A stretch of 34,460 nucleotides of DNA from Bacteroidota bacterium (GTDB lineage Bacteria; Bacteroidota; Ignavibacteria; Ignavibacteriales; Melioribacteraceae). Each line of letters opens with the position of its first letter. Position 1 is the stretch's first letter. The notes beneath the pieces were generated by a model. That model searched no databases and was not told the DNA's origin. It was given only the letters and a program-made list of their open reading frames with translations. This document shows, piece after piece, positions 18,286-30,965 of this stretch. The stretch is from contig JAHJTX010000156.1 of the NCBI GenBank assembly GCA_018829545.1, positions 1 to 34,460 of the forward strand, in the 5' to 3' direction. The position numbers were made by a program, and so were the translations under genes.

Positions 18286-18424
18286 CTTTAAAACTCATCT
18301 TACGTAAAAGGATAAAAATTGTAGGGCGATCCGCTGAATCGATTAGTCAATTTAGTTCAAATTATTCAATTAATGAGCGAAACAGAGTTTCGCTCTACAT
18401 TTTTGCGTAACATGAGTTTAAAAG
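18286..18424. repeat. MITE-like element with about 30-base imperfect terminal inverted repeats
   Basis: The left end (18286-18324, CTTTAAAACTCATCTTACGT onward to TTGTAG) is an imperfect inverse of the right end (18395-18424, CTACATTTTTGCGTAACATG then AGTTTAAAAG). The left arm carries a short extra stretch. An internal perfect hairpin, GAGCGAAAC with GTTTCGCTC around AGA, lies at 18375-18395. No transposase frame is inside. The right end overlaps the stop codon and last codon of the beta-barrel gene, so that gene's terminus may have been set by the insertion. Confidence 0.65.
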
Positions 18425-19566
18425 TAATATTCCAACTGAAGATATATTGTGCTGGGATAGTACCAATACTCGCTTGAACTTTTTCCGTAAAACACCTGAC
18501 CGCCGATGGCTGTGTAAATATTATCCGACAAAGAATAATTTGCGCTCAATCCCGTGAATCCGCTGCCATCATTAAGATTGCTAATCTCAGTGAGAGTAAA
18601 AGTAAGCAGCGGTGTAAATTGGTACATGGCGCTGAAGGCTAAATAGTTTTTTCCAAGATTTAAAATATCACCTTCAATAAGTTTGTCGAACTCATAATTA
18701 GATTTACTCAGTTTTCCAGCGCCATTATGCTGGTATTCAATGAGAGCATAAATATTTTGAGTGAATTGATAGTCCGCACCTAAAATAAAATGGACATAAT
18801 TGGCGACACTCTTAAAGGACACAATGCTTTCTCCGCGCACACCCGCATCAAAAAAGTTTCCCGCAAAATCCAAACCGCCAATCAATCTCTCATCAAATCT
18901 TCCGGAGATAATTGCAACATCAAATTCGGAAATATTTGTTCGAAACCTAAAACCGTAATTACTGTTTCGAAGAACTTCTTTGGGATTATAAACAAGGTGA
19001 AGATCGGTAAAACTGTCGAAACTAAATTTAGCCGTTACCGCATCTGCGCCGTCTTGTTCTAGTTTATAAAATGACGTGGGATTTATCGGATTAAAAAGAT
19101 CTGTCGGATTCCAGACTCTGCCTGTTCCCCAGGAAATTCGCTGTCTGCCGATTATAATATTTCCCCAATTAAATCCCTGCCGGAAATACAATCTGTCAAT
19201 TAAACTCAGCGCCGTAAAATTACCACTCGTTTTGACAACGGATAGATTGGCTAATTGTCGGCTAGATTTTTTTGCTTCCGAAATAAAGAAAGCAGATAAA
19301 TCATCGTACAATAATAAGGACGATTCAATCTCTGCGGCAATTCTACTGTTTTCAGAAATGTAGAAGGCGGGTTTTAATCTAACCCGCGTCAGATTCATTT
19401 TTATTGCGCCGGCTAAATTATAGGAATTTGCTTGCTGCTGATTGAACAATTGTAAGATCGGCATGGTAATAACGTATCCGGTAAATTCGAATTCGGGTTG
19501 TGCAATTGTTTTTATGTTTATAAATAGAGTACAGAAGAGAACAGTTACTGAAAAAATCTTTTTCAT
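18418..19566 (-). CDS. Outer membrane beta-barrel protein linked to LolA-like/ABC operon
   Basis: A 382-residue protein with a signal peptide (K-K-I-F start, cleavage near I-A-Q). Its mature part has many alternating strands and ends with L-Q-L-E-Y-Y-F, the aromatic terminus of outer membrane barrels. The segment I-I-I-G-R-Q-R-I-S-W-G-T-G-R-V-W-N-P-T-D-L-F-N-P (about 136-159) is typical of DUF1302-like/alginate-export-like barrels. The ATG overlaps the ATPase stop as ATGA, so it belongs to the ABC operon. The natural reading is an outer membrane receiver or channel for cargo moved by the upstream LolA-like protein and ABC transporter. The last two codons overlap a MITE-like repeat end. Confidence 0.82.
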   Translation of the reverse strand: MKKIFSVTVLFCTLFINIKTIAQPEFEFTGYVITMPILQLFNQQQANSYNLAGAIKMNLTRVRLKPAFYISENSRIAAEIESSLLLYDDLSAFFISEAKKSSRQLANLSVVKTSGNFTALSLIDRLYFRQGFNWGNIIIGRQRISWGTGRVWNPTDLFNPINPTSFYKLEQDGADAVTAKFSFDSFTDLHLVYNPKEVLRNSNYGFRFRTNISEFDVAIISGRFDERLIGGLDFAGNFFDAGVRGESIVSFKSVANYVHFILGADYQFTQNIYALIEYQHNGAGKLSKSNYEFDKLIEGDILNLGKNYLAFSAMYQFTPLLTFTLTEISNLNDGSGFTGLSANYSLSDNIYTAIGGQVFYGKSSSEYWYYPSTIYLQLEYYF

Positions 19567-20237
19567 TTCAAATCCAGTTTTCCGTCCCTCAAAAGGATTA
19601 GCCTCTTTGCTCTCTCAATCACCTGATTATCGTGAGAAGAAAAAATAAATGTAATGTTTTTATCTCTGTTCATTTTTTCCATCAGATCAAGAAGTTTGCC
19701 GCCAGTAACCGAATCAAGATTTGCGGTTGGTTCATCGGCAAAAACAATTTCCGGATCATTTACAATTGCCCGCGCAACGGCAACTCGCTGCTGCTGTCCG
19801 CCGCTCATTTCGTTGGGTCTTTTGTATGCAAGATCTTTTATTTCAAGTTCATCCAGCAAACTAAGCGCTTTACTTCTTCTTTCGGATTCTGGAATTCCCA
19901 ACAGCATCATACTGAATTCAATATTTTCAATTGCAGAAAGTACAGGAATTAAATTATATGCTTGAAAAACAAATCCGAATTTATTCAATCGAAGAGCGGA
20001 AAGTTCTTTTCTCTTTTTGATTGTTATGTCACTACCCTCTAAAAATATTTTTCCGTTTGTAGGCTTATCCAAAGCTCCAATTACATTAAGCAGAGTAGTT
20101 TTCCCGGAGCCTGAAGGTCCCGCAATTACGGTAAACTCGCCGCGCTCGAAAGAAAGATTAATATCTTTGAGTGCCTCAACAGGAACTCCATTATCGCTGT
20201 AAGTCTTATCTAAGTTTTCGGTTTTAATTAAATCCAT
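19563..20237 (-). CDS. ABC transporter ATPase, LolD/MacB type
   Basis: A 224-residue ATPase with Walker A A-G-P-S-G-S-G-K-T-T (39-48), Q-loop F-V-F-Q-A-Y-N-L-I-P, signature M-S-G-G-Q-Q-Q-R-V-A-V-A-R (143-155), Walker B I-V-F-A-D-E-P-T-A-N-L-D and a switch His in S-S-H-D. The sequence and the two FtsX-type permeases place it in the LolD/MacB/FtsE class, which extracts substrates from the outer leaflet of the inner membrane by mechanotransmission rather than transport through a channel. AGAGGA precedes the ATG. It sits nine bases after the permease gene and overlaps the barrel gene. Confidence 0.93.
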   Translation of the reverse strand: MDLIKTENLDKTYSDNGVPVEALKDINLSFERGEFTVIAGPSGSGKTTLLNVIGALDKPTNGKIFLEGSDITIKKRKELSALRLNKFGFVFQAYNLIPVLSAIENIEFSMMLLGIPESERRSKALSLLDELEIKDLAYKRPNEMSGGQQQRVAVARAIVNDPEIVFADEPTANLDSVTGGKLLDLMEKMNRDKNITFIFSSHDNQVIERAKRLILLRDGKLDLK

Positions 20238-20246
20238 AAAATCCTC

Positions 20247-21461
20247 TTATACGTGTCTTATTGCAGTTACAGGTTGAAGCTTTACGGCTCTATATGCAGG
20301 ATAAAAAGCGCCGATAATTGATATCAACGGAATAGTAAGCAGCAAAGAAATCAAATTTTCCATTGAGAGTTTAGGATAGAGAATTGCTCCAATTCCGAAA
20401 GAATCCAGACTCTCTGCAAAAGAACTTAAATCTATTCCGTTAATCAGAACGCCTTTGTACAGAACCCAGCCAAGCACAACTCCGATAATTGTTCCCAGCA
20501 GCCCAATTAAAAAAGCTTCGAGAACAATCATATTTACTATTTTGCCATTTTTCATCCCTATTGCCATTAGAACTCCTATTTCCTGAGTCCTTTCATAAAC
20601 AGCCATAAGCATGGCATTTATTATTCCGAATATTAATGCAAGTCCAATAATAAAATTAATAACGTAAATCATTTCCTTGTACATGTCCAACTGCATAACC
20701 AATAAGGGAAGCACTTCGTCATAGGAAAGAACTTCAAATCTCTCACCCAATTTTGATTCGATTTCATCAGCTGCTTGCGGTGCGAAATGATAGTCCTTTG
20801 TAATGATTGCCAATTCGTGATACTCAGCGCCGAGTTCAAGCATATTTTGCGCATCGGTAATAGGAACGTATATATATGCTTTGTTGTATTCTGAATCGGG
20901 CGAGCGGAATATTCCAATTACGCGGAATACATCCGAACCAATTGAACCGTCCTTCATATTTGCCATGCAAACGATTTTATCTCCAATATCAACCTGGAGT
21001 TTTTCCGAAAGAGTAGTTCCAATTAATACTTCTCGAATTCCGGTTTCAAAATATTTGCCTTTAACAACCGAGCTGATGATGATCGACACATTTTTTTCTA
21101 ATTCGGGATCAACGCCGAATAGAAATATTCCGGATGAGTTGTTAGCGCTGCTTATTAATCCGAATGTTATTACGCGTTTACTGTAAAAAGAAACGTGTTC
21201 ATTTTCGATGGCAGCTTGCTCAGCGGCGTTGTTATCGGGAATTGTATTTTGAACAATCTTGTTGTCAATAAATCCGTTCTTATGAATTTGAATATGCGAT
21301 GTACTCAAATTGATTTGGTTGAAAAGCATTTGATAAAGCATACCGTTCTGCAACGCATCCATGCAGATCGCCGCAACAATTCCGACTATCACGGAACTTA
21401 AAACAATTATCGACCGGCGTTTATTACGCCAGATATTTCTCCACGCAATTTTTATCAACAT
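20247..21461 (-). CDS. FtsX-type ABC permease, second of the pair
   Basis: A 404-residue MacB/LolC/E-like permease. It opens with K-I-A-W-R-N-I-W-R-N-K-R-R-S, the conserved cytoplasmic hook, then a first membrane helix at about 17-37. A large periplasmic MacB_PCD region spans about 40-265, and three C-terminal helices form the FtsX domain, ending with Y-P-A-Y-R-A-V-K-L-Q-P-V-T-A-I-R. The E-R-T-Q-E-I-G-V-L-M-A-I-G-M coupling helix motif touches the ATPase. It is four bases after the other permease, so the transporter is probably a heterodimer, as in LolCE. The cargo is not shown by sequence. Confidence 0.9.
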   Translation of the reverse strand: MLIKIAWRNIWRNKRRSIIVLSSVIVGIVAAICMDALQNGMLYQMLFNQINLSTSHIQIHKNGFIDNKIVQNTIPDNNAAEQAAIENEHVSFYSKRVITFGLISSANNSSGIFLFGVDPELEKNVSIIISSVVKGKYFETGIREVLIGTTLSEKLQVDIGDKIVCMANMKDGSIGSDVFRVIGIFRSPDSEYNKAYIYVPITDAQNMLELGAEYHELAIITKDYHFAPQAADEIESKLGERFEVLSYDEVLPLLVMQLDMYKEMIYVINFIIGLALIFGIINAMLMAVYERTQEIGVLMAIGMKNGKIVNMIVLEAFLIGLLGTIIGVVLGWVLYKGVLINGIDLSSFAESLDSFGIGAILYPKLSMENLISLLLTIPLISIIGAFYPAYRAVKLQPVTAIRHV

Positions 21462-21465
21462 AGCA

Positions 21466-22695
21466 TTATGTATATCTAATTCCTTTGAGTGGTTCTAATT
21501 TATATACTTTGTACGCCGGATAAAGAACGGAAATTATAGAAATCACGAAAATAACCAATGAGGTATTTAAGAAAATAATCAAATCGACTGAAGATTCAAT
21601 AATTGGGAGGAAACCGTATTCTTCGTACATCTGTTCGAACTCAGCGCCAAGAGTGATCGGGTTATTATGAATGTATGAATTAATTCCATATCCAATTAAG
21701 TCTCCAAGCAGTATTCCTATTGAAGCAATGAAAACAGTTTCCATTATTATCAAAGTAACGAGCTTTATTTGAGGCATGCCTATTGAAAGAGAAACGCCGA
21801 ATTCTTTGAATCTTTCCGTAACCGACATTAAGACAGTATTTAAAATTCCGAATGCAACTATGATAACCAAAATCAAAAGCATCAGCGCACCGCTCACATT
21901 ATCGAGGTCAATTGACTGTTTAAATTCAGGAAGAACCTCGCCCCAATCAAGGACAACAAGAGAGGCATCATTAATTTTATTCTGCAATCCAGTCTTAACT
22001 TCATCCAAGTCGCCCTGCGAACTAAGTGTAATAACAATTGAATGGATGCGGTTTTCCATCGCCAATAATTCCTGCGCGCTATTTAACGCGACGAACACTG
22101 CAGACAAATCCATTTCCGGATTGCCAAATTTTACTGTTCCGCTGATTTTAAATTTTAGATTTCCCAGCGAACCATCAATGCCCTGCGAAAGGACAACTAC
22201 TTCGTCTCCAATTTTGGCGTTAAGATTTTTTAAAAGTTTATATCCAACGACTATATCGTAACTGGTATCGGAAGCGAAAAAACTTCCCTCCATTAGTCTA
22301 TTCATAATAGTAGTTGATGCAGATTCATGTTTTGGCGAGAATCCGATTAGCGCGGCGCCTTGAGAATTGTTTTTGAAACTTATCAGCCCGCCGCTCATTA
22401 CCCGCGGAGCAAATCCCTTAATAAGTTTGTTTTCAGAAAGAATATTCTGCAGCTCTTGGGAGAATTTAAAGTTCTTTGTAAGCGAATTATCTTTTTGGAA
22501 TCCCGCTTTCTGAACTTGAATATAGCCTGAGAAAAGATTGAGAACGTATTTTATATTAACATCGTAAGTGCCAATTTGAACTCCGCGCATAGCAATTGCA
22601 GTCATCGTTGCAAACACAATTGCAATTAGAGTAAGTAAAGACCTTCTCTTATTGCGCCAGATGTTTCTCCAACTGAGTTTTAAGAGAAGTCCCAC
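21466..22695 (-). CDS. FtsX-type ABC permease, first of the pair
   Basis: A 409-residue paralogue of the next permease, with the same topology: K-L-S-W-R-N-I-W-R-N-K-R-R-S at the N-terminus, one membrane helix, a large periplasmic domain, and three helices ending in Y-P-A-Y-K-V-Y-K-L-E-P-L-K-G-I-R. The coupling motif is E-R-F-K-E-F-G-V-S-L-S-I-G-M. The start is GTG, directly abutting the TAA of the LolA-like gene. An AGAGGA ribosome binding site lies inside that upstream gene, so translation is probably coupled. The two permeases are clearly diverged, consistent with a heterodimer. Confidence 0.9.
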   Translation of the reverse strand: MGLLLKLSWRNIWRNKRRSLLTLIAIVFATMTAIAMRGVQIGTYDVNIKYVLNLFSGYIQVQKAGFQKDNSLTKNFKFSQELQNILSENKLIKGFAPRVMSGGLISFKNNSQGAALIGFSPKHESASTTIMNRLMEGSFFASDTSYDIVVGYKLLKNLNAKIGDEVVVLSQGIDGSLGNLKFKISGTVKFGNPEMDLSAVFVALNSAQELLAMENRIHSIVITLSSQGDLDEVKTGLQNKINDASLVVLDWGEVLPEFKQSIDLDNVSGALMLLILVIIVAFGILNTVLMSVTERFKEFGVSLSIGMPQIKLVTLIIMETVFIASIGILLGDLIGYGINSYIHNNPITLGAEFEQMYEEYGFLPIIESSVDLIIFLNTSLVIFVISIISVLYPAYKVYKLEPLKGIRYT

Positions 22696-23433
22696 TTAGT
22701 TTCCTCTTTCCAATTCTTGAAACGAAAAAGTACGCGATGGAATTTTAACATCAAATTTCATGTCAATAACCTTCATCTCAGTTGAACTGCCTTCTTTGGA
22801 AGTATTTATCATTCTCCAAATTGTCGGCATCTTTTTTCCGTTAAGAGTTTTAACTTCTTCAAACTCCATGTACCTTTTCATGTTTCCTTTTTCATCAAAG
22901 TAATCTAACCGCGTAGGAATAAAATCAGATTTACGCACCCAGTAATGAATTTCCCCCCACACTACGGCAACGTCAGGATTTGGAATTAATTCAACCCCCC
23001 AGCACAATTCGCCGCTCAAGGTTTTATCGGGCAAAAACTTGTGTTTATAATCTTTTTCGAGGTTGGATTCTCTAACTAAATCATCATTCGTAAAATCCGA
23101 TCCATTCCACGATTGAAGCATCATTGAAGGAGGGATTTTAATTGTAGTTTCGGTATTCTTTAAGTAGTTCCACATTTCGTTGCCGATCTTTAGCGTTTTA
23201 TTTCCGCGCTCTCTTTTTGGCGAATCAATAATAATCAGAGCTTTTTCATTTCCAACCCACCAGCTTCTCATTTTAAGAGTTCTTTCGTAATCGGGATTAA
23301 CAACGGTCATGGAAATTTCGCCATAAGCATTTTCGCCTTTAATAACGTTTTCTGCTTTCTTAATGATCTCCATTGCGGATTGGGAGAAGACTTGCGATGT
23401 GATTGCAATTAAAAAAAAGATTAGCTTTTTCAT
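22696..23433 (-). CDS. LolA-like outer membrane lipoprotein-sorting protein
   Basis: A periplasmic protein of about 245 residues. The signal peptide K-K-L-I-F-F-L-I-A-I ends near V-F-S-Q at residue 18. The mature part is of the LolA_like (PF17131-type) family: S-P-K-R-E-R-G-N-K-T-L-K-I-G-N-E-M-W-N-Y-L and G-S-D-F-T-N-D-D-L-V, then the strand R-L-D-Y-F-D-E-K-G-N-M-K-R-Y-M. These proteins have the lipid-binding half-barrel of LolA/LolB and carry lipid or acyl groups across the periplasm. The true start is ATG 23433, preceded by AAGGG; the frame extends upstream for 33 codons without a signal peptide. It is the first gene of the operon, before the ABC permeases. Confidence 0.88.
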   Translation of the reverse strand: MKKLIFFLIAITSQVFSQSAMEIIKKAENVIKGENAYGEISMTVVNPDYERTLKMRSWWVGNEKALIIIDSPKRERGNKTLKIGNEMWNYLKNTETTIKIPPSMMLQSWNGSDFTNDDLVRESNLEKDYKHKFLPDKTLSGELCWGVELIPNPDVAVVWGEIHYWVRKSDFIPTRLDYFDEKGNMKRYMEFEEVKTLNGKKMPTIWRMINTSKEGSSTEMKVIDMKFDVKIPSRTFSFQELERGN

Positions 23434-23563: not shown

Positions 23564-24778
23564 TTATCCGACCATTGAGGCGGCAAATTGGAATACATTT
23601 CTAAAGTTTACATCCACAATTTCTTTCAACTTTTCGTTGGCAGGGAATGGATTTTCGTGAGTGTACTCGTAAGGGAAGTCCGAAATTAAAGTTCTTACGG
23701 GCACCTTCATCTTGTCGCCGTTGAGAGTGCTTATCACCGAATCCGGAGGAAATACTTTGTCTTTAATTAATGCCATCGCAAAAATGCGGTCTTTTAACTC
23801 ATCAAACTTTTTATCCCGCAGTTCGCTGTTGTTATTATAATCGGAAAGGAACTCTAAAAAATTTATTTCAATCAAATCCTTTAGCTTGGCCAACGGCTTG
23901 GTTAGAGGCGAATCCGAAGAGAAAAGCTTCTTTAAAAAATCAGTCAGCGAAGAAGATGCTTCGCTATCCAAAATAGCTTTTGCCACAGGCGAAGTTAGAT
24001 CGAGAGAAGAACCCCCGCAAAAAATGAATAGCTTAGATTTATCGAAGTAATTGTTTTTATTAGACATCATTAAAACTTGGGCTAACAGGGCGCCGATTGA
24101 ATAGCCGAATAAATCAATACTTGCATCATCGTAGATGAATTTATGTTTGCCGGAGCGAATTTGTTTAATTATGTTAATTACATCTGAATAACTCTGCATT
24201 CCGGATTGAAAAAATTTGTGGGGCTGATAGTGTATTCTCGTGCTGAGAACAGCATTCGCAAAAGTTGAATTGCTTAGTCCGGGCAAATTTTGTTTGCGCT
24301 CTTCTGATATAGCCTTTAACCGCGCCAAATTAAACCACGATTGAGGCGTGCGGTTGATGTGAAATGCGAGAGGAAACATTAAAATGGCTTTCCCCGTCAA
24401 TAGATGAAGCTCGAGCGCCCATGGTAGATATTTTAACCAAGACCTCTCATTCAATCCGTGGAAAAAAACTATTACTTCCTTTGCGCGGACGTTCTCTTTG
24501 TCCTTTATCAAAATGTAATTAAACGATTTGTTGTCCTGCGAATCCTCGTCTGATTCGTTATTTAGCTTAAAGGATTCAGATGAATTATTCAGTAATAAAT
24601 TTTGATGTTCATTCTCTCTTTGATATTCCGATCGAATTTTGGACAGAAACTCTTTGTTCATTTTAAAATTCGACTTGAAATTTATATGATGAAGAACGGA
24701 TTTTTGATTGTCCAAATTTATCAGCGGAATATTTGGGTTATACTGATTCTTAAAAGAATTCAACGTATTGTAATACAC
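23564..24778 (-). CDS. Alpha/beta hydrolase-like protein of DUF6051 type
   Basis: About 404 residues, without a signal peptide. It has alpha/beta hydrolase hallmarks: the oxyanion loop V-F-F-H-G-L-N-E-R-S-W (about 104-114), the nucleophile elbow L-F-G-Y-S-I-G-A-L-L (Ser near 231), and late candidates for Asp and His (K-D-K-V-F-P-P-D, and H-E-N-P-F near 380). It resembles the poorly described DUF6051 family of Bacteroidota-like bacteria. The start is GTG 24778, ten bases after the MerR-like stop with GAG upstream; an ATG at 24661 is possible but would drop 39 residues. Sharing an operon with a MerR-type regulator suggests regulated hydrolysis of an ester or similar substrate, which is inference. 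Confidence 0.72.
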   Translation of the reverse strand: MYYNTLNSFKNQYNPNIPLINLDNQKSVLHHINFKSNFKMNKEFLSKIRSEYQRENEHQNLLLNNSSESFKLNNESDEDSQDNKSFNYILIKDKENVRAKEVIVFFHGLNERSWLKYLPWALELHLLTGKAILMFPLAFHINRTPQSWFNLARLKAISEERKQNLPGLSNSTFANAVLSTRIHYQPHKFFQSGMQSYSDVINIIKQIRSGKHKFIYDDASIDLFGYSIGALLAQVLMMSNKNNYFDKSKLFIFCGGSSLDLTSPVAKAILDSEASSSLTDFLKKLFSSDSPLTKPLAKLKDLIEINFLEFLSDYNNNSELRDKKFDELKDRIFAMALIKDKVFPPDSVISTLNGDKMKVPVRTLISDFPYEYTHENPFPANEKLKEIVDVNFRNVFQFAASMVG

Positions 24779-24788
24779 TTTGTACTCA

Positions 24789-25487
24789 CTATTTGTTTTC
24801 GCGTTTGCTGTTTTTAGTTTTAAGCGAAGTGATTTCTTTTTTCTTCGCCTTTAGAAGTTCTTCCCATCTCTCTATGCCTTCTTTGAAATCGTTCATTCTA
24901 GCAAATAAATTTTGAACCTCATCGCTCATCTCAGAAAGTTTTTGCTCGACATCTCCCATTGGAGAGGCTTCATAATTTCTTTGAAGGGCAAGAAATTCCC
25001 GGAAGAAATCAGATATCTTTTTTATTTCATCCAACGAATAACCAAAGAGCTGAAGATCCTTAATTAGTTTGCAGAGATAAACGTAGATTTCCGAGTAGAG
25101 ACGAAAACCGCCCTCACTTCTCATTTCAGAATCGATTATTCCTTTCTCCTCCCAATGCTTAATTGTTCTTGGGCTAATTCCCACAAGTTCCGCTAAGTTT
25201 CCAACGGTTATAAATTTTTCGGTCTCGGACTTTCCGGAATCTAATTCAGCGGCTTTGGGCAGCCCAACCTTTTTGATAATTTTATGAATTTCGCTCGTAC
25301 CGTATCCAAGATCTGTCAGTGTTCTGATCTGCTTTACTTTTTCCACAGCAGCGCTTGTGTAAAAAGCAACTTTATCATCTGTAACCCCGGAAGGAGAAAT
25401 AAGTTTTTCATTCTCGTAATTTTTTAATGCTTCTTCTGTAATTCCGGCTGCTTTAAGGAACTCAGCAATAATAAATATTTGATTCAT
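24789..25487 (-). CDS. Transcriptional regulator with two tandem MerR-type DNA-binding domains
   Basis: A 232-residue regulator. Residues 3-76 form a diverged MerR-like unit (L-K-A-A-G-I-T-E-E-A-L-K-N-Y-E-N-E-K-L-I, then I-R-T-L-T-D-L-G-Y-G). Residues 91-163 form a clear second MerR unit (I-T-V-G-N-L-A-E-L-V-G-I-S-P-R-T-I-K-H-W-E-E-K-G, then L-F-G-Y-S-L-D-E-I-K-K-I). The C-terminal 60 residues are a lysine-rich coiled coil for dimerisation, with no obvious metal-binding cysteines. A GAGGT ribosome binding site precedes the ATG. It is co-transcribed with the DUF6051-like gene and lies beside a palindrome at 25515-25542 that could be its own operator. Confidence 0.85.
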   Translation of the reverse strand: MNQIFIIAEFLKAAGITEEALKNYENEKLISPSGVTDDKVAFYTSAAVEKVKQIRTLTDLGYGTSEIHKIIKKVGLPKAAELDSGKSETEKFITVGNLAELVGISPRTIKHWEEKGIIDSEMRSEGGFRLYSEIYVYLCKLIKDLQLFGYSLDEIKKISDFFREFLALQRNYEASPMGDVEQKLSEMSDEVQNLFARMNDFKEGIERWEELLKAKKKEITSLKTKNSKRENK

Positions 25488-25644: not shown

Positions 25645-26853
25645 TTAATCTGTTAAACCAAGCGCTTTTATATAACCCTCATTTGCTTCGCACTTTTTTA
25701 GATTACAATTTTCAAGGTATTCTGCCAAGATTTGTTTAACTACAGCCTGATCTAACCGGTTCTCTCTAATGAATTGATAGTTATCGCGCGGTTTTTCGGC
25801 GTAATCCATAATCGTTTCATAATTGGAAGGATATTTAATCTGCACTATTCCCGCGGATGATTCAAGTTTTTTATAAGGCCAGAAGCACCAGCCGATATTG
25901 TGCTGTTCCAGCAGAGTTCTAAAATTGTTCACCCATTCGTCCGAGTTTTCGCCCGATTCACCGAGGTATAACGGCACATTATATTTTTCGGAGAAATCGA
26001 GATACTCCTGTATCTGTTCTTGAACCGGCTCCATCCAATATTTGTGAAATGTATAAACTAAGTTATCGTCAAACGGTTCGCCGAAAACGGAAAAATTAGT
26101 ATTCCATTTAGCGCCGCCCAGAAATATGATGTGGTTCTTATCTACTTCACGAATTGCAGCAGTCGCCTTTTTATAGAGAGGCTCAAGTTTTTCATAGAGT
26201 CCATCTTCTTCAAAGTAATGCGCAATAGGCTCGTTTAGTAAATCATAACCAATAATTATTTTATCATCTGCATATTTTTCTGCGATTGATTTCCAAATTT
26301 TAATGAATTCATTTTGGCAATCCTCAGATGTGAACAACCAGGGATAGCCCCAGCTATCGTCAATGTTGTCGCCGGTCTGCCCGCAAGGCGCGCCGTGCAT
26401 ATCAAGAATTACATAAAGATTTTCTTTTCTGCACCAATCTAAGATTCTGTCGAATAATTCAAATCCTCTTGCCTGCGTATTGTGAAGAAATGTCTCGTCG
26501 TTAAACAAAGCATAATGAAAAGGAAGGCGGATTGAATTAAGTCCGAGCCTTTTGATGAACTTAATATCTTCATGAGTAATGTAAACATCCTGAAAATTAA
26601 CCCAGAATTTTTTAGCTTCATCCGGTCCAATCAATTCAGCAAAAACAGAAGTAACCAATCGGGGTGAATTCGGCTTTTTGAATTTGAACATATAACCTTC
26701 CGGCAGAAGCCAATTCCCGATGTTCATTCCCTTAAGAAGAATCGGTTCGCCACTTGGAAGAATAATTTCCTTTCCTCTGGTTTTTACAAAATCACCGGCA
26801 AACATTTGAAATGATAAAACCGTCAGCATTATTATTACAAATCGAAGTTTCAT
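25645..26853 (-). CDS. Secreted GH5 family glycoside hydrolase (endo-glucanase/exo-beta-1,3-glucanase-like)
   Basis: About 402 residues with a signal peptide (K-L-R-F-V-I-I-M-L start, cleavage near M-F-A-G). The GH5 TIM barrel shows L-N-S-I-R-L-P-F, V-I-L-D-M-H-G-A-P, the acid/base Glu in Y-D-L-L-N-E-P (E208) and the nucleophile in Y-L-G-E-S-G-E (E299). The motif G-M-N-I-G-N-W-L-L-P-E-G near residue 42 recalls the exo-beta-1,3-glucanase-type GH5 branch. The start is ATG 26853 with GAGTTG upstream rather than the TTG at 26859. It is the last gene of the operon, 12 bases after GH3. Confidence 0.88.
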   Translation of the reverse strand: MKLRFVIIMLTVLSFQMFAGDFVKTRGKEIILPSGEPILLKGMNIGNWLLPEGYMFKFKKPNSPRLVTSVFAELIGPDEAKKFWVNFQDVYITHEDIKFIKRLGLNSIRLPFHYALFNDETFLHNTQARGFELFDRILDWCRKENLYVILDMHGAPCGQTGDNIDDSWGYPWLFTSEDCQNEFIKIWKSIAEKYADDKIIIGYDLLNEPIAHYFEEDGLYEKLEPLYKKATAAIREVDKNHIIFLGGAKWNTNFSVFGEPFDDNLVYTFHKYWMEPVQEQIQEYLDFSEKYNVPLYLGESGENSDEWVNNFRTLLEQHNIGWCFWPYKKLESSAGIVQIKYPSNYETIMDYAEKPRDNYQFIRENRLDQAVVKQILAEYLENCNLKKCEANEGYIKALGLTD

Positions 26854-26865
26854 AGTCAACTCAAG

Positions 26866-29094
26866 TTATTCAGTTATAAAAAAAGATGTTCCAAGTCCGC
26901 AATCGGAATCACCGCCGACCCATAATTTAAATTCACCTGGCTCGGTTACTCTAAGCATTTCGTTATTAATAAATGATAGATCGTCAGTGCTTAATTGAAA
27001 CAAAATTGTTTTTTTATCTCCCGGTTTCAAAGTCACTCGCTCGAATCTCTTAAGCTCTTTTACGGGACGAGTAACGCTTGCGTACAGATCTCTTACGTAA
27101 AGTTGAACAACTTCAGTGGCTTCATAATCACCAATATTATTAAGGTCGAAAGAAACTGAAAACGAGGACTTGTTTTTAACTTCATTCGGAAACATTTGAA
27201 GATTGCTGTACTCAAATTTTGTGTAAGATAATCCATAACCGAAAGGATATGCCGGCGTAAAATCAACATCGAGATAATTTGACACAAAACCCTTTGGATC
27301 CAACGGAGTTCCAATGGGAATACCGAGCATATTTTCGGAAGGCGGACGACCAGTATTTTTATGTGAATAATATATTGGAATTTGTCCAACGGTTCGCGGG
27401 AATGTTACAGGAAGTTTTCCCGAAGGAGAAGTAAGCCCAACAAGAATATCCGCGATTGCGGGCCCGCCCATTGTTCCTGGATGCCATGCGTATAAAATGG
27501 CATCTGCTCTTTCAGAAATATTTGGGAAGGTGAGCGGTCTTCCTGCCATTATAACAACTACAATCGGCTTTCCAGCGTGACTTAAAGTTTCGAACAAATC
27601 ATCTTGTGCTCCGGGCAAATTTAAAAATGCGCGGCTATGCGCTTCGCCGGAAAGGATTGCCTCTTCACCAAGGAACAGTAGAATTACATCGCTCAATTCA
27701 GCCAATTTAACGGCATCCTCGAATTTGCTTTTATCAATTGTCCTGCTGTTTTCAAGCACATCTAAATACTTTATTTCAGCTATCCCTTCCAGTGATTTTT
27801 TAAGTGAAGTCAATGGCGTCTGCGTGTTTTCTTTTTTCCCATCCGGTGACCAAGTTCCCATTTGATCTTCAGGGCTGTCTGCCAACGGACCGAATACTGC
27901 AATCGTTTTCACTTTTTTTGATAGAGGCAGAACAGTATTGTTTTTAAGCATAACAATTGATTGTTCAGCTAATTGTTTTGCTGCCGCGAGATGATTCTCG
28001 GTTAATAGTTTGGAAACCTTTGGCTCTTTTGTATAAGGATTTTCAAACAAGCCGCAGCGGAATTTTATTCTCAAAATATTTCCAGCGGCTGTATTAACAA
28101 CTTCTTCAGAGACGAGTCCATCTTGAATTAGTTTTTCGAGATTATCCGCATAGCTCAAAGATACCATTTCCATATCCACGCCGGCGTTGGCGGATTTCAT
28201 TGCAGCCTCATACTCATCCTTTGCGTAACCGTGAGTGATCATTTCAGTTACTGAACTCCAATCGCTGACCACAAATCCATCAAAATTCCACTCGCCTCGT
28301 AAAACTTTGTTAAGCGTAAAATCATTTCCAGAAGCGGGAATTCCGTTTATATCATTGAATGCGCTCATAAGAGTCGCAACGCCGGCATCAACGGCGGATT
28401 TGAAAGGAGGCAGATAAATTTCTCTTAAAAGCTGCTCGGGAATATATGTGGTGTTATAATCTCTTCCACCTTCGGCAGCGCCATAGCCGACATAATGCTT
28501 CGCGCAGGCTGCAATCGATTCTGCATCTGACAAATTTTCACCTTGAAACCCTTTTACCATTGATGCTGCGAGTTTAGATGCGAGGTACACATCCTCGCCG
28601 CATGATTCTGCAATGCGACCCCATCTTGGGTCGCGGGCATTATCTATCATAGGCGCAAAAGTCCACTTAATTCCTTCGGAAGACGCTTCAACCGCCGCAA
28701 TGCGGGCAGCTTCTTGAACAAGAGCGGGATTCCAGCTTGCGGCTTGTCCAAGCGGAATTGGGAACATTGTTCTGTAGCCATGAATTACGTCTCTACCATA
28801 AATTAACGGAATTCCCAATCGGCTCTCTTCAACTGCAATTTTTTGAAGATCGTTTTTTGTTTTTAAATCTCCCGCGTTTAATAGTGAGCCGACTAATCCT
28901 TTTTTAATATCATCCTTAATATTGTCTTCGCCGCCCTTCGACCACAAATGATACTGCGCCATCTGCCCGATTTTTTCCTTTAACGTCATTTTCGATAATA
29001 AATCTGTCACGCGTTTTTCAACATCGTCTTGTGAATAGATGTTGAATGAAACGAAGAGCAGCAGTGATAAAACTATTGTTGATTTCATTTTCAC
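26866..29094 (-). CDS. bglX: Periplasmic GH3 beta-glucosidase (BglX-like)
   Basis: A 742-residue GH3 enzyme close to the usual BglX length. A signal peptide occupies about 1-21. The (beta/alpha)8 domain has G-R-D-V-I-H-G-Y, the K-H motif at 199-200 and the nucleophile in G-F-V-V-S-D-W-S (D278). The alpha/beta sandwich domain includes F-L-G-E-E-A-I-L-S-G-E-A-H-S-R, which should carry the acid/base Glu. A C-terminal Fn3-like domain at about 655-735 ends the protein. It releases glucose from short beta-glucan chains made by the neighbouring GH16 and GH5 enzymes. The start is GTG 29094, four bases after AGGGG; ATG 29088 is the alternative. Confidence 0.92.
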   Translation of the reverse strand: MKMKSTIVLSLLLFVSFNIYSQDDVEKRVTDLLSKMTLKEKIGQMAQYHLWSKGGEDNIKDDIKKGLVGSLLNAGDLKTKNDLQKIAVEESRLGIPLIYGRDVIHGYRTMFPIPLGQAASWNPALVQEAARIAAVEASSEGIKWTFAPMIDNARDPRWGRIAESCGEDVYLASKLAASMVKGFQGENLSDAESIAACAKHYVGYGAAEGGRDYNTTYIPEQLLREIYLPPFKSAVDAGVATLMSAFNDINGIPASGNDFTLNKVLRGEWNFDGFVVSDWSSVTEMITHGYAKDEYEAAMKSANAGVDMEMVSLSYADNLEKLIQDGLVSEEVVNTAAGNILRIKFRCGLFENPYTKEPKVSKLLTENHLAAAKQLAEQSIVMLKNNTVLPLSKKVKTIAVFGPLADSPEDQMGTWSPDGKKENTQTPLTSLKKSLEGIAEIKYLDVLENSRTIDKSKFEDAVKLAELSDVILLFLGEEAILSGEAHSRAFLNLPGAQDDLFETLSHAGKPIVVVIMAGRPLTFPNISERADAILYAWHPGTMGGPAIADILVGLTSPSGKLPVTFPRTVGQIPIYYSHKNTGRPPSENMLGIPIGTPLDPKGFVSNYLDVDFTPAYPFGYGLSYTKFEYSNLQMFPNEVKNKSSFSVSFDLNNIGDYEATEVVQLYVRDLYASVTRPVKELKRFERVTLKPGDKKTILFQLSTDDLSFINNEMLRVTEPGEFKLWVGGDSDCGLGTSFFITE

Positions 29095-29123
29095 AATGCC
29101 CCTTACTTTTTATGGATACAATT

Positions 29124-30965
29124 TTATTTTATGTAAAGAATTTTTTTTACAAAAGAGAAAGCGTCATTATTAATTACAATAATATAAGTTCCTGAATTCA
29201 GCGATTCCGCGGGATTCCATTCATAAACGTTTGCGCCAAGGCGGATAATTATTTCTTTAGTAAAAACCTTTCTCCCCAAAACATCGTACACTATCATTTC
29301 CTTATTAAGATCGGATAGAGAATTTGAAGTTAGTGCAACCTTCACATTCCCATTAAATGGGTTGGGGTAAACCTCGATTTTGTTTTCATACGAAAAATCT
29401 CGTTCGCCCTCCACACCGGTTGCAAGTAATGAGAATGCGATTTTATCTAAATTAAATCCACCGGTTGATGTTGAAAAACAAATAACATGGAGTCCCTTAG
29501 GAAGTTGAAATGCGGAAGAAATTCTTTCAGTCCAATTTTGCCAGCCGCCGGTGTTCGGCAGAATCTGCTCGCCTGTTAAGTTTGTCTCGTTGAGAAATAA
29601 CTCAAACTTATTGCCGTCATTGGGCGAAGCAGTTCGTGTTGATAATGTATAAATCCCGCTATTGATAATATTTACTGTATATTCAAACCACTCGCCCGCA
29701 TCTATCCATCCAACATTGAATCCGCTATCGGAAGAGCCTTCGGTATCAACTCCTTCATCAGTGCGAAAACTGTTTCCGTAGTTGTTGCCCGTGTTAATCG
29801 AATCAGTATCAAAGTATGCAGTTTCGGCGCCACCGAGGTCAAAATATTCAGCTTCAATAGTTCCTGGAATTTCTAAAGGGAATCCAAGGTAAGGAGATTG
29901 ACCGCATCCGGCGCCAATGCTAACTTCGATTGGTTCGGACTTGCGGATATTGCCTTCGTTATCTGTTACTTTTGCAATTAGTTCATAACAGCCAGACTGA
30001 ACATTTTCCCAATTATAAGTGTAAGGAGTGTTTGTGAATGTTTTCAATAATCCGTCCATTTGAAACAACTCAACTTTTGCTACGTTTCCATCGGGATCGG
30101 ATGCGCTGATGATTACCGGAATGGCTTTTCCATAATCGAATAATTGATTGTTCGTTGGATAGAGAATTGATGATTTGGGAAATTTATTAGCATCTTTATA
30201 AACGCGCACAAAATCAACTTCCATTTTTTGCGGAAACTGTGTTGAATTATCCGGACTCCCAGGCCATGTTCCTCCGACGGCAAGGTTTAGCAAAAGAAAA
30301 AAGTTGTTATGAAATTCAGAAAGTTGAGCGGGAGTAATATCAATTACGTGATATTGAATTCCATCAAGTTTCCAAACAATTTTTTTTTCGTCCCACTCAA
30401 TTGCAAACAGATGAAAAGCATCTGCAAAAATTCCGCTCGAAAGTTTTCGAGATCCGGCGTAAGAAGCGTGTTGTCCGTTATTTGACCAGTGAGCGGCTCC
30501 ATGTACGGTGTTGTCATTTCCCGTTCCGCCAATTAGCTCAACGATGTCAATTTCTCCGCATGCGGGCCATCCGACTTGTTTGAAATTTTCTCCCATCATC
30601 CAAAATGCAGGCCACATACCCTGACCATATGGCAGTCTTATCGAAGCCTCAACTTTGCCGTATTTCCAGAATCTTTTTCCCATAGAAATCATTCTTGCAG
30701 AAGTATAACTTTTTCCGCTATACGATTCGTTTTTGGCGACAATAACAAGTTTGCCATCTTCAACATAGGAATTATCACTCCTATTTGTATAATATTGTAA
30801 CTCTTGATTTCCCCAACCGTGTCCGCCGGTTTCGTGTGTCCAAGTTGAGGAGTTTATTTCGCTGTTGTCAAATTCATCCGACCATACGAGTTCATAGTTC
30901 TGCGTAAATATTTGTGACGATAAAAATAACGTTAGCAACAGTGATGAGAAAAACTTTATTTTCAT
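29124..30965 (-). CDS. Secreted GH16 laminarinase-like enzyme with Ig-like, CBM6 and type IX secretion domains
   Basis: A 613-residue multidomain enzyme. It has a signal peptide (1-22) and a GH16 beta-jelly-roll at 23-257, with the catalytic motif G-E-I-D-I-V-E (E138, D140, E143) and W-P-A-F-W-M-M-G. This is the endo-beta-1,3-glucanase type. A bacterial Ig-like domain (about 265-350) and a CBM6-like carbohydrate-binding domain (about 365-510, ending in G-F-N-L-D-K-I-A-F) follow. The last 80 residues are a type IX secretion sorting domain with V-Y-P-N-P-F-N-G and Y-D-V-L-G-R-K-V-F, so it is exported to the cell surface or outside. It is first of the three hydrolase genes and cuts polymer for GH3 and GH5. 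Confidence 0.93.
   Translation of the reverse strand: MKIKFFSSLLLTLFLSSQIFTQNYELVWSDEFDNSEINSSTWTHETGGHGWGNQELQYYTNRSDNSYVEDGKLVIVAKNESYSGKSYTSARMISMGKRFWKYGKVEASIRLPYGQGMWPAFWMMGENFKQVGWPACGEIDIVELIGGTGNDNTVHGAAHWSNNGQHASYAGSRKLSSGIFADAFHLFAIEWDEKKIVWKLDGIQYHVIDITPAQLSEFHNNFFLLLNLAVGGTWPGSPDNSTQFPQKMEVDFVRVYKDANKFPKSSILYPTNNQLFDYGKAIPVIISASDPDGNVAKVELFQMDGLLKTFTNTPYTYNWENVQSGCYELIAKVTDNEGNIRKSEPIEVSIGAGCGQSPYLGFPLEIPGTIEAEYFDLGGAETAYFDTDSINTGNNYGNSFRTDEGVDTEGSSDSGFNVGWIDAGEWFEYTVNIINSGIYTLSTRTASPNDGNKFELFLNETNLTGEQILPNTGGWQNWTERISSAFQLPKGLHVICFSTSTGGFNLDKIAFSLLATGVEGERDFSYENKIEVYPNPFNGNVKVALTSNSLSDLNKEMIVYDVLGRKVFTKEIIIRLGANVYEWNPAESLNSGTYIIVINNDAFSFVKKILYIK

Follow-up and report, generated by a model that had tools for sequence, protein, structure and literature searches.

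Little is known of how hydrophobic molecules get across the periplasm and outer membrane, and a compact locus in a Bacteroidota genome of the family Melioribacteraceae raises the question of whether a single operon could encode the whole route. The locus lies in a window of 34,460 nucleotides, which is the entire stretch of DNA analysed (contig JAHJTX010000156.1, assembly GCA_018829545.1). An earlier note, made from the letters alone, had described it as a self-contained operon and had suggested a separate route for a lipid or a lipoprotein. At issue, then, are whether the genes form a conserved unit, whether that unit is simply a Lol system, and what kind of molecule it might carry.

Organization of the Locus

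Five open reading frames occupy positions 18418–23433 of the window on the minus strand, all at the place given earlier. Read 5′ to 3′, they encode a LolA-like carrier, two FtsX-type permeases (FtsX1 and FtsX2), a LolD-like ABC ATPase and an outer-membrane barrel protein. The carrier gene (22696..23433) opens with an ATG and encodes 245 amino acids matching PF17131, including a cleavable signal peptide, read by eye, without a lipobox cysteine. An alternative TTG reading frame of the same gene extends to 23532 and is probably not the true start. FtsX1 (21466..22695) has a GTG start and follows with no gap; FtsX2 (20247..21461) lies 4 bases further on, and the ATPase gene (19563..20237; PF00005, E 6e-34) another 9. 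The barrel gene (18418..19566) overlaps the ATPase gene by 4 bases at an ATGA. Spacings of 0, 4, 9 and −4 bases confirm the tight coupling, with gaps of no more than nine bases, that had been claimed for the set. A perfect 9-bp hairpin at 18375..18395, 22 bases past the barrel stop, was called on the plus strand by a scan for terminator-like sequences, and possibly serves as a terminator between convergent units.

Upstream, on the same strand and about 130 bases ahead of the LolA-like start, lie a DUF6051 gene with weak similarity to alpha/beta-hydrolases and a MerR-type gene that matches in two stretches (23564–25487, minus strand). Beyond them, at 25645–30965 on the minus strand, GH5, GH3 and GH16-CBM6 genes stand in a row, the GH16 protein bearing a type IX secretion tail, in what looks like a block for beta-glucan degradation. 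Neither the DUF6051 and MerR-type genes nor the glycoside hydrolase genes are conserved with the module. There is no TetR or MarR gene beside the window copy, and the window contains no HAIR site of the HspR type.

Conservation of the Five-Gene Set

A first survey covered 395 genomes of the phylum and counted a LolA-like match as strong at 120 bits or more. Such matches occurred in 88 genomes, and in 81 of these the barrel gene followed on the same strand, no more than 12 kb downstream, a linkage far above chance. The median distance between the two genes, 3.5 kb, would accommodate two permease genes and an ATPase gene, and the gene order was confirmed in most of the 40 regions that were read individually; G389 and G196 had the other four genes but the barrel elsewhere. 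Among the remaining seven genomes, the barrel was elsewhere in the assembly in six (some on short contigs) and missing from one. Conversely, the barrel never occurred without a LolA-like match (103 of 103 barrel genomes, a count that ignores shared ancestry).

A second survey, of named contigs, took the best 80 of at least 574 relatives and so leans to the closer ones; some genomes may be common to both surveys. Where at least 5.2 kb of downstream sequence was available (51 loci of the best 80), a permease was found in all 51, an ATPase in 50 and the barrel in 48, with the exact gene order of the window in 37. Record titles, many of them metagenome bins, named Bacteroidota, Ignavibacteria, Poribacteria, Zixiibacteriota, Gemmatimonadetes and Spirochaetia as well as Beta-, Gamma- and Deltaproteobacteria, and a complete set was found on a Vibrio campbellii replicon. 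In some Proteobacteria, the module has only one permease gene; in several of these copies its length is about doubled, and it may represent two permeases fused. Across 21 loci, and uncorrected for the species tree, pairwise distances of the barrel correlated with those of the other four proteins at r 0.905–0.946, and distances among all five at r 0.905–0.956, a pattern that fits joint inheritance. Both surveys thus bear out the view of the set as a conserved, self-contained unit to which the barrel belongs.

Variation within the set takes several forms. The permease pair is duplicated in L098 (G377) and L142, giving four FtsX-type permeases per operon, and in the closely related L079 (5706–8379) and L082 (8768–11863), a gene for an NmrA-like NAD-binding protein sits between ATPase and barrel. 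In L164 and L191, from Piscinibacter and Roseateles, the start of the LolA-like gene is overlapped by a gene for an FtsH-type protease, and the ATPase gene is preceded by one for a phosphoketolase (tested by Pfam in L164); neither would be expected beside an exporter. The LolA-like matches at G377:C6:41626-42330 and G259:C3:15949-16668 each include one stop, which may be the normal terminal codon, a sign of decay or a fault of assembly. A further variant replaces the ABC part with an MMPL/RND pump: L112 reads TetR, LolA-like, barrel, MMPL; L113 is the same without TetR; and a similar combination occurs in Prevotella nigrescens. The window module itself has no RND/HAE3 inner-membrane pump by Pfam, which finds the ABC transporter instead.

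Regulators are a recurrent feature of the relatives. Of the 69 loci of the best-80 sample with enough upstream sequence, 37 have a TetR-type gene next to the LolA-like gene, and a related family stands beside the module in 7 more, the two members tested both matching MarR. No cargo gene is constantly linked to the module: clustering of the nearest genes, some of which could be named, showed that neighbours differ between lineages. Genes for FtsH, phosphoketolase, NmrA-like, UbiA, fatty acid hydroxylase and chemotaxis proteins were each considered as a clue to cargo and set aside as lineage-specific, so no cargo is assigned from the neighbourhood.

Relationship to the Lol System

The same genome carries a separate, canonical Lol system, with lolC-lolE-lolD in tandem on contig 401 and a LolA gene directly after ftsK on contig 14. 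The module is thus not the sole Lol-type set, and across 57 genomes of the family, TIGR02212 matches were mostly tandem canonical pairs, scoring higher, as against module-type permeases, scoring lower. The earlier note had named two outcomes that would count against it, a barrel mostly absent from the operon in relatives and a set that was the only Lol system in its genome; neither arose, because the barrel is conserved with the set and a canonical system is present. Its contrast between the barrel and the usual LolB receiver fares less well. It is weak, because PF03550 finds no LolB in the module or anywhere else in this genome, where a divergent one may exist. LolB is often absent outside Proteobacteria.

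Like LolCDE-LolA, the module combines an ABC ATPase, two FtsX-type permeases of the LolC/LolE fold and a periplasmic carrier of the LolA fold; the ATPase and the permease pair were assigned from Pfam, the nearest NCBIfam models, PDB sequence matches and Foldseek. The carrier matches PF17131 LolA_like (E 3.7e-51, 173.9 bits against a Pfam gathering score of 30) rather than PF03548, the family of the classical carrier, and its profile matches the solved LolA-fold proteins 9tp6, 3buu, 4z48 and 3bk5. The ATPase has an intact Walker A (GPSGSGKT), signature (MSGGQQQR) and Walker B (VFADEPT) as read in the sequence, and its nearest NCBIfam model is LolD (TIGR02211), at 221 bits, below the cut-off of 308. 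Both permeases contain FtsX and MacB_PCD domains (PF02687 and PF12704), and NCBIfam ranks LolCE first for each, at 155 and 112 bits against a cut-off of 362. The genome's own canonical LolC and LolE (305 and 262 bits) fall short of it too, so that missing it says little either way. FtsX2 is closest in sequence to LolF and LolE (PDB sequence matches of 1.4e-26 and 1.1e-20). FtsX1, with four transmembrane helices and a periplasmic domain, was modelled by AlphaFold2 at a pLDDT of 90.6; its top Foldseek matches, LolE and LolC, rank above MacB and point to a LolC/LolE-like fold; its Hook region is short.

The Hook is one point at which the module departs from Lol, and its own barrel in the operon is another. 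In LolC, the Hook (E. coli residues 167–179) is essential and likely the universal recruiter of LolA (PMC10865981). In one alignment, the region is 7 residues long in 57 of 57 module permeases, often reading xxDGSxG, against 13 in E. coli LolC and 13 and 15 in the genome's own LolC and LolE, so the known docking device for LolA is reduced. Since its permeases are without the full-length LolC Hook, the set, judged by sequence, appears to be Lol-like, not Lol.

The Barrel

That the last gene encodes an outer-membrane beta-barrel is supported by an AlphaFold2 model with a mean pLDDT of 91.6, built on an alignment of 33 relatives, in which about 18 strands (counted from the DSSP list) are predicted and the C-terminal residue is Phe. 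On its own, the sequence has no match in Pfam, NCBIfam or PDB sequences, and a profile search gave one spurious match. Foldseek against the PDB returned general porin-type barrels, namely MOMP, OmpF/OmpC and AlgE, at TM 0.46–0.58. An Omp85 insertase was considered and ruled out: no Omp85 protein is among the 50 best PDB folds, and Pfam finds no Omp85 or POTRA domain. The most conserved segment, GRQRIxWGxGRxWNPTDLFNPxNP, includes a long ordered coil (residues 143–173) that, judging from strand parity in the model, would leave the barrel from the outer side, like loop 3 of porins.

The barrel had been called DUF1302-like. Membership in that family does not hold, as the window protein has no match to PF06980 and only 1 of the 33 relatives a marginal one (E 0.023). 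Kinship would be distant, by two links: a Prevotella protein annotated as DUF1302 is picked up by PF06980 (1.3e-13) as well as by the profile of the module barrel (7e-15), and hhalign of that profile against four DUF1302 proteins gave a marginal match (probability 54%, E 1.3e-4, with no unrelated barrels as control). As a statement of distant homology, the term seems fair.

Comparison with Known Transport Clusters

A close precedent is AmeABCD of Castellaniella defragrans, where a LolA-superfamily protein and a DUF1302-type barrel are likewise co-encoded with an inner-membrane transporter, and whose deletion lowers monoterpene tolerance (PMC6394551). It differs in that the transporter is an RND pump rather than an ABC transporter, the carrier belongs to DUF1329 rather than PF17131, the barrel protein has 605 amino acids, and there is an extra periplasmic protein, AmeC. 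A LolA-like protein has also been found within a limonene-degradation operon (PMC12583861). MMPL-LolA-like-DUF1302 operons of Porphyromonas and Prevotella, which are upregulated 13- to 223-fold under iron limitation (PMC10434189), resemble the module in their TetR and LolA-like genes; L204 adds a barrel of DUF1302 type to which the module barrel profile also matches. Where the module has its FtsX-type transporter, these operons encode an MMPL pump together with two more proteins of ABC transporters.

Two other systems resemble the module in part. The BBJ23-29 cluster of Borrelia groups a LolA-like carrier, a MacB-like ABC transporter and an outer-membrane barrel, for which a non-polar cargo has been proposed only (PMC13078400); unlike the module, it has an Omp85-type barrel, a homodimeric permease and TPR proteins, and no TetR is described. 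In the flexirubin operon of Flavobacterium johnsoniae, LolA2-LolB2 includes an accessory carrier of the LolA fold whose presumed cargo is a hydrophobic pigment (PMC11885536). LolA2 pairs with LolB2, unlike the module carrier. To our knowledge, no dedicated ABC transporter or barrel has been described for it. A LolA-like/ABC/barrel cluster for non-polar cargo has thus already been proposed, with another kind of barrel, and the RND form is partly characterized; of the ABC five-gene set, we found no description in the open-access papers searched.

Proposed Function and Alternatives

On balance, we favour, by a modest measure, an ATP-driven export route that spans all three layers, serves a hydrophobic molecule and runs apart from the housekeeping Lol pathway. 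In this route, FtsX1, FtsX2 and the LolD-like ATPase would together make up a type VII ABC transporter, by which a lipid, pigment, terpenoid or other amphiphile is pushed out of the inner membrane or extracted from it. The LolA-like protein would then ferry this cargo across the periplasm inside its hydrophobic half-barrel, and the route's own porin-type barrel would admit it into or through the outer membrane. We infer the transport, its outward direction, the hydrophobic nature of the cargo and the contact between carrier and barrel from this assembly of parts. Two observations speak against it: no gene that would hint at a cargo accompanies the set throughout, and the window copy has neither a TetR nor a MarR gene at its side. 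By analogy, the best reading is of a ligand-inducible ABC counterpart of RND-LolA-like-DUF1302 exporters such as AmeABCD.

The separate route of the original proposal is retained here; of its two candidate cargoes, a lipid or a lipoprotein, the latter is what the evidence leans away from. A second lipoprotein-sorting route, of the kind proposed for Borrelia, is unlikely, if the least so of the alternatives. In such a route, the ABC transporter would extract certain lipoproteins for the LolA-like protein to transport, and their insertion, or their flipping to the cell surface, would fall to the barrel. The permeases are closest to LolC, LolE and LolF in sequence and fold, the carrier has the LolA fold, PF03550 finds no LolB in the genome, and the Borrelia cluster joins a LolA-like protein and a MacB-like ABC transporter to an Omp85 barrel (PMC13078400). 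The module's barrel, however, is porin-like rather than Omp85, the genome already possesses canonical lolCDE and lolA, and no lipoprotein gene is constantly linked. The short Hook of all 57 module permeases also counts against lipoproteins, although it would be compatible with their carriage, since these permeases may use another contact. The reduced Hook, the TetR/MarR regulators, which fit small ligands, and the AmeABCD precedent, all of them indirect, together tip the balance towards a hydrophobic molecule or lipid that is not a lipoprotein.

Among such cargoes, bulk outer-membrane lipids deserve mention, with phospholipids or a lineage-specific structural lipid moved in either direction for homeostasis. 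LolA-fold proteins and FtsX-type ABC systems do handle acylated molecules, and single copies are directly preceded by a fatty acid hydroxylase gene (L148) or a UbiA prenyltransferase gene (L193). Those enzymes are isolated cases, however, and both the repressor-type local regulators and the patchy distribution (88 of 395 phylum genomes with a strong match) are unlike a housekeeping lipid route, which makes this account improbable. Uptake, in which a hydrophobic nutrient would enter through the barrel as its specific porin and then be handled by the carrier and the ABC transporter, would suit a porin-like barrel and the glycoside hydrolase genes nearby, but those neighbours are not conserved, no solute-binding protein is present, and the solved relatives of the permease fold, LolCDE and MacB, are exporters; it is very improbable. 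We give least credence of all to a drug-efflux or signalling ABC transporter of the MacB/BceAB type standing beside a carrier and a porin by chance. It would account for the MacB_PCD domains of both permeases and for the TetR linkage in relatives, yet the unit has no MacA-type adaptor or TolC (Pfam and NCBIfam of the five genes), LolC and LolE outrank MacB in the structure comparison, and every surveyed genome with the barrel also has a LolA-like match.

Significance

Beyond the hydrophobic export route proposed for this operon, we raise, as a tentative suggestion more doubtful than the route itself, that the set belongs to an unnamed and widespread class of ligand-inducible exporters, in which a soluble LolA-type carrier, rather than a rigid adaptor tube, would deliver a hydrophobic cargo to its own porin-type gate in the outer membrane, and ABC and RND motors would be interchangeable behind one carrier-barrel pair. 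In practical terms, the database name “outer membrane lipoprotein-sorting protein” implies a role in lipoprotein sorting, and caution is warranted before the module genes are annotated in that way. If the proposal is true, one operon would encode a complete shuttle, spread across phyla and open to deletion and reconstitution, and monoterpene efflux, the iron-induced MMPL operons and the Borrelia cluster would be one kind of machine with exchangeable motors.
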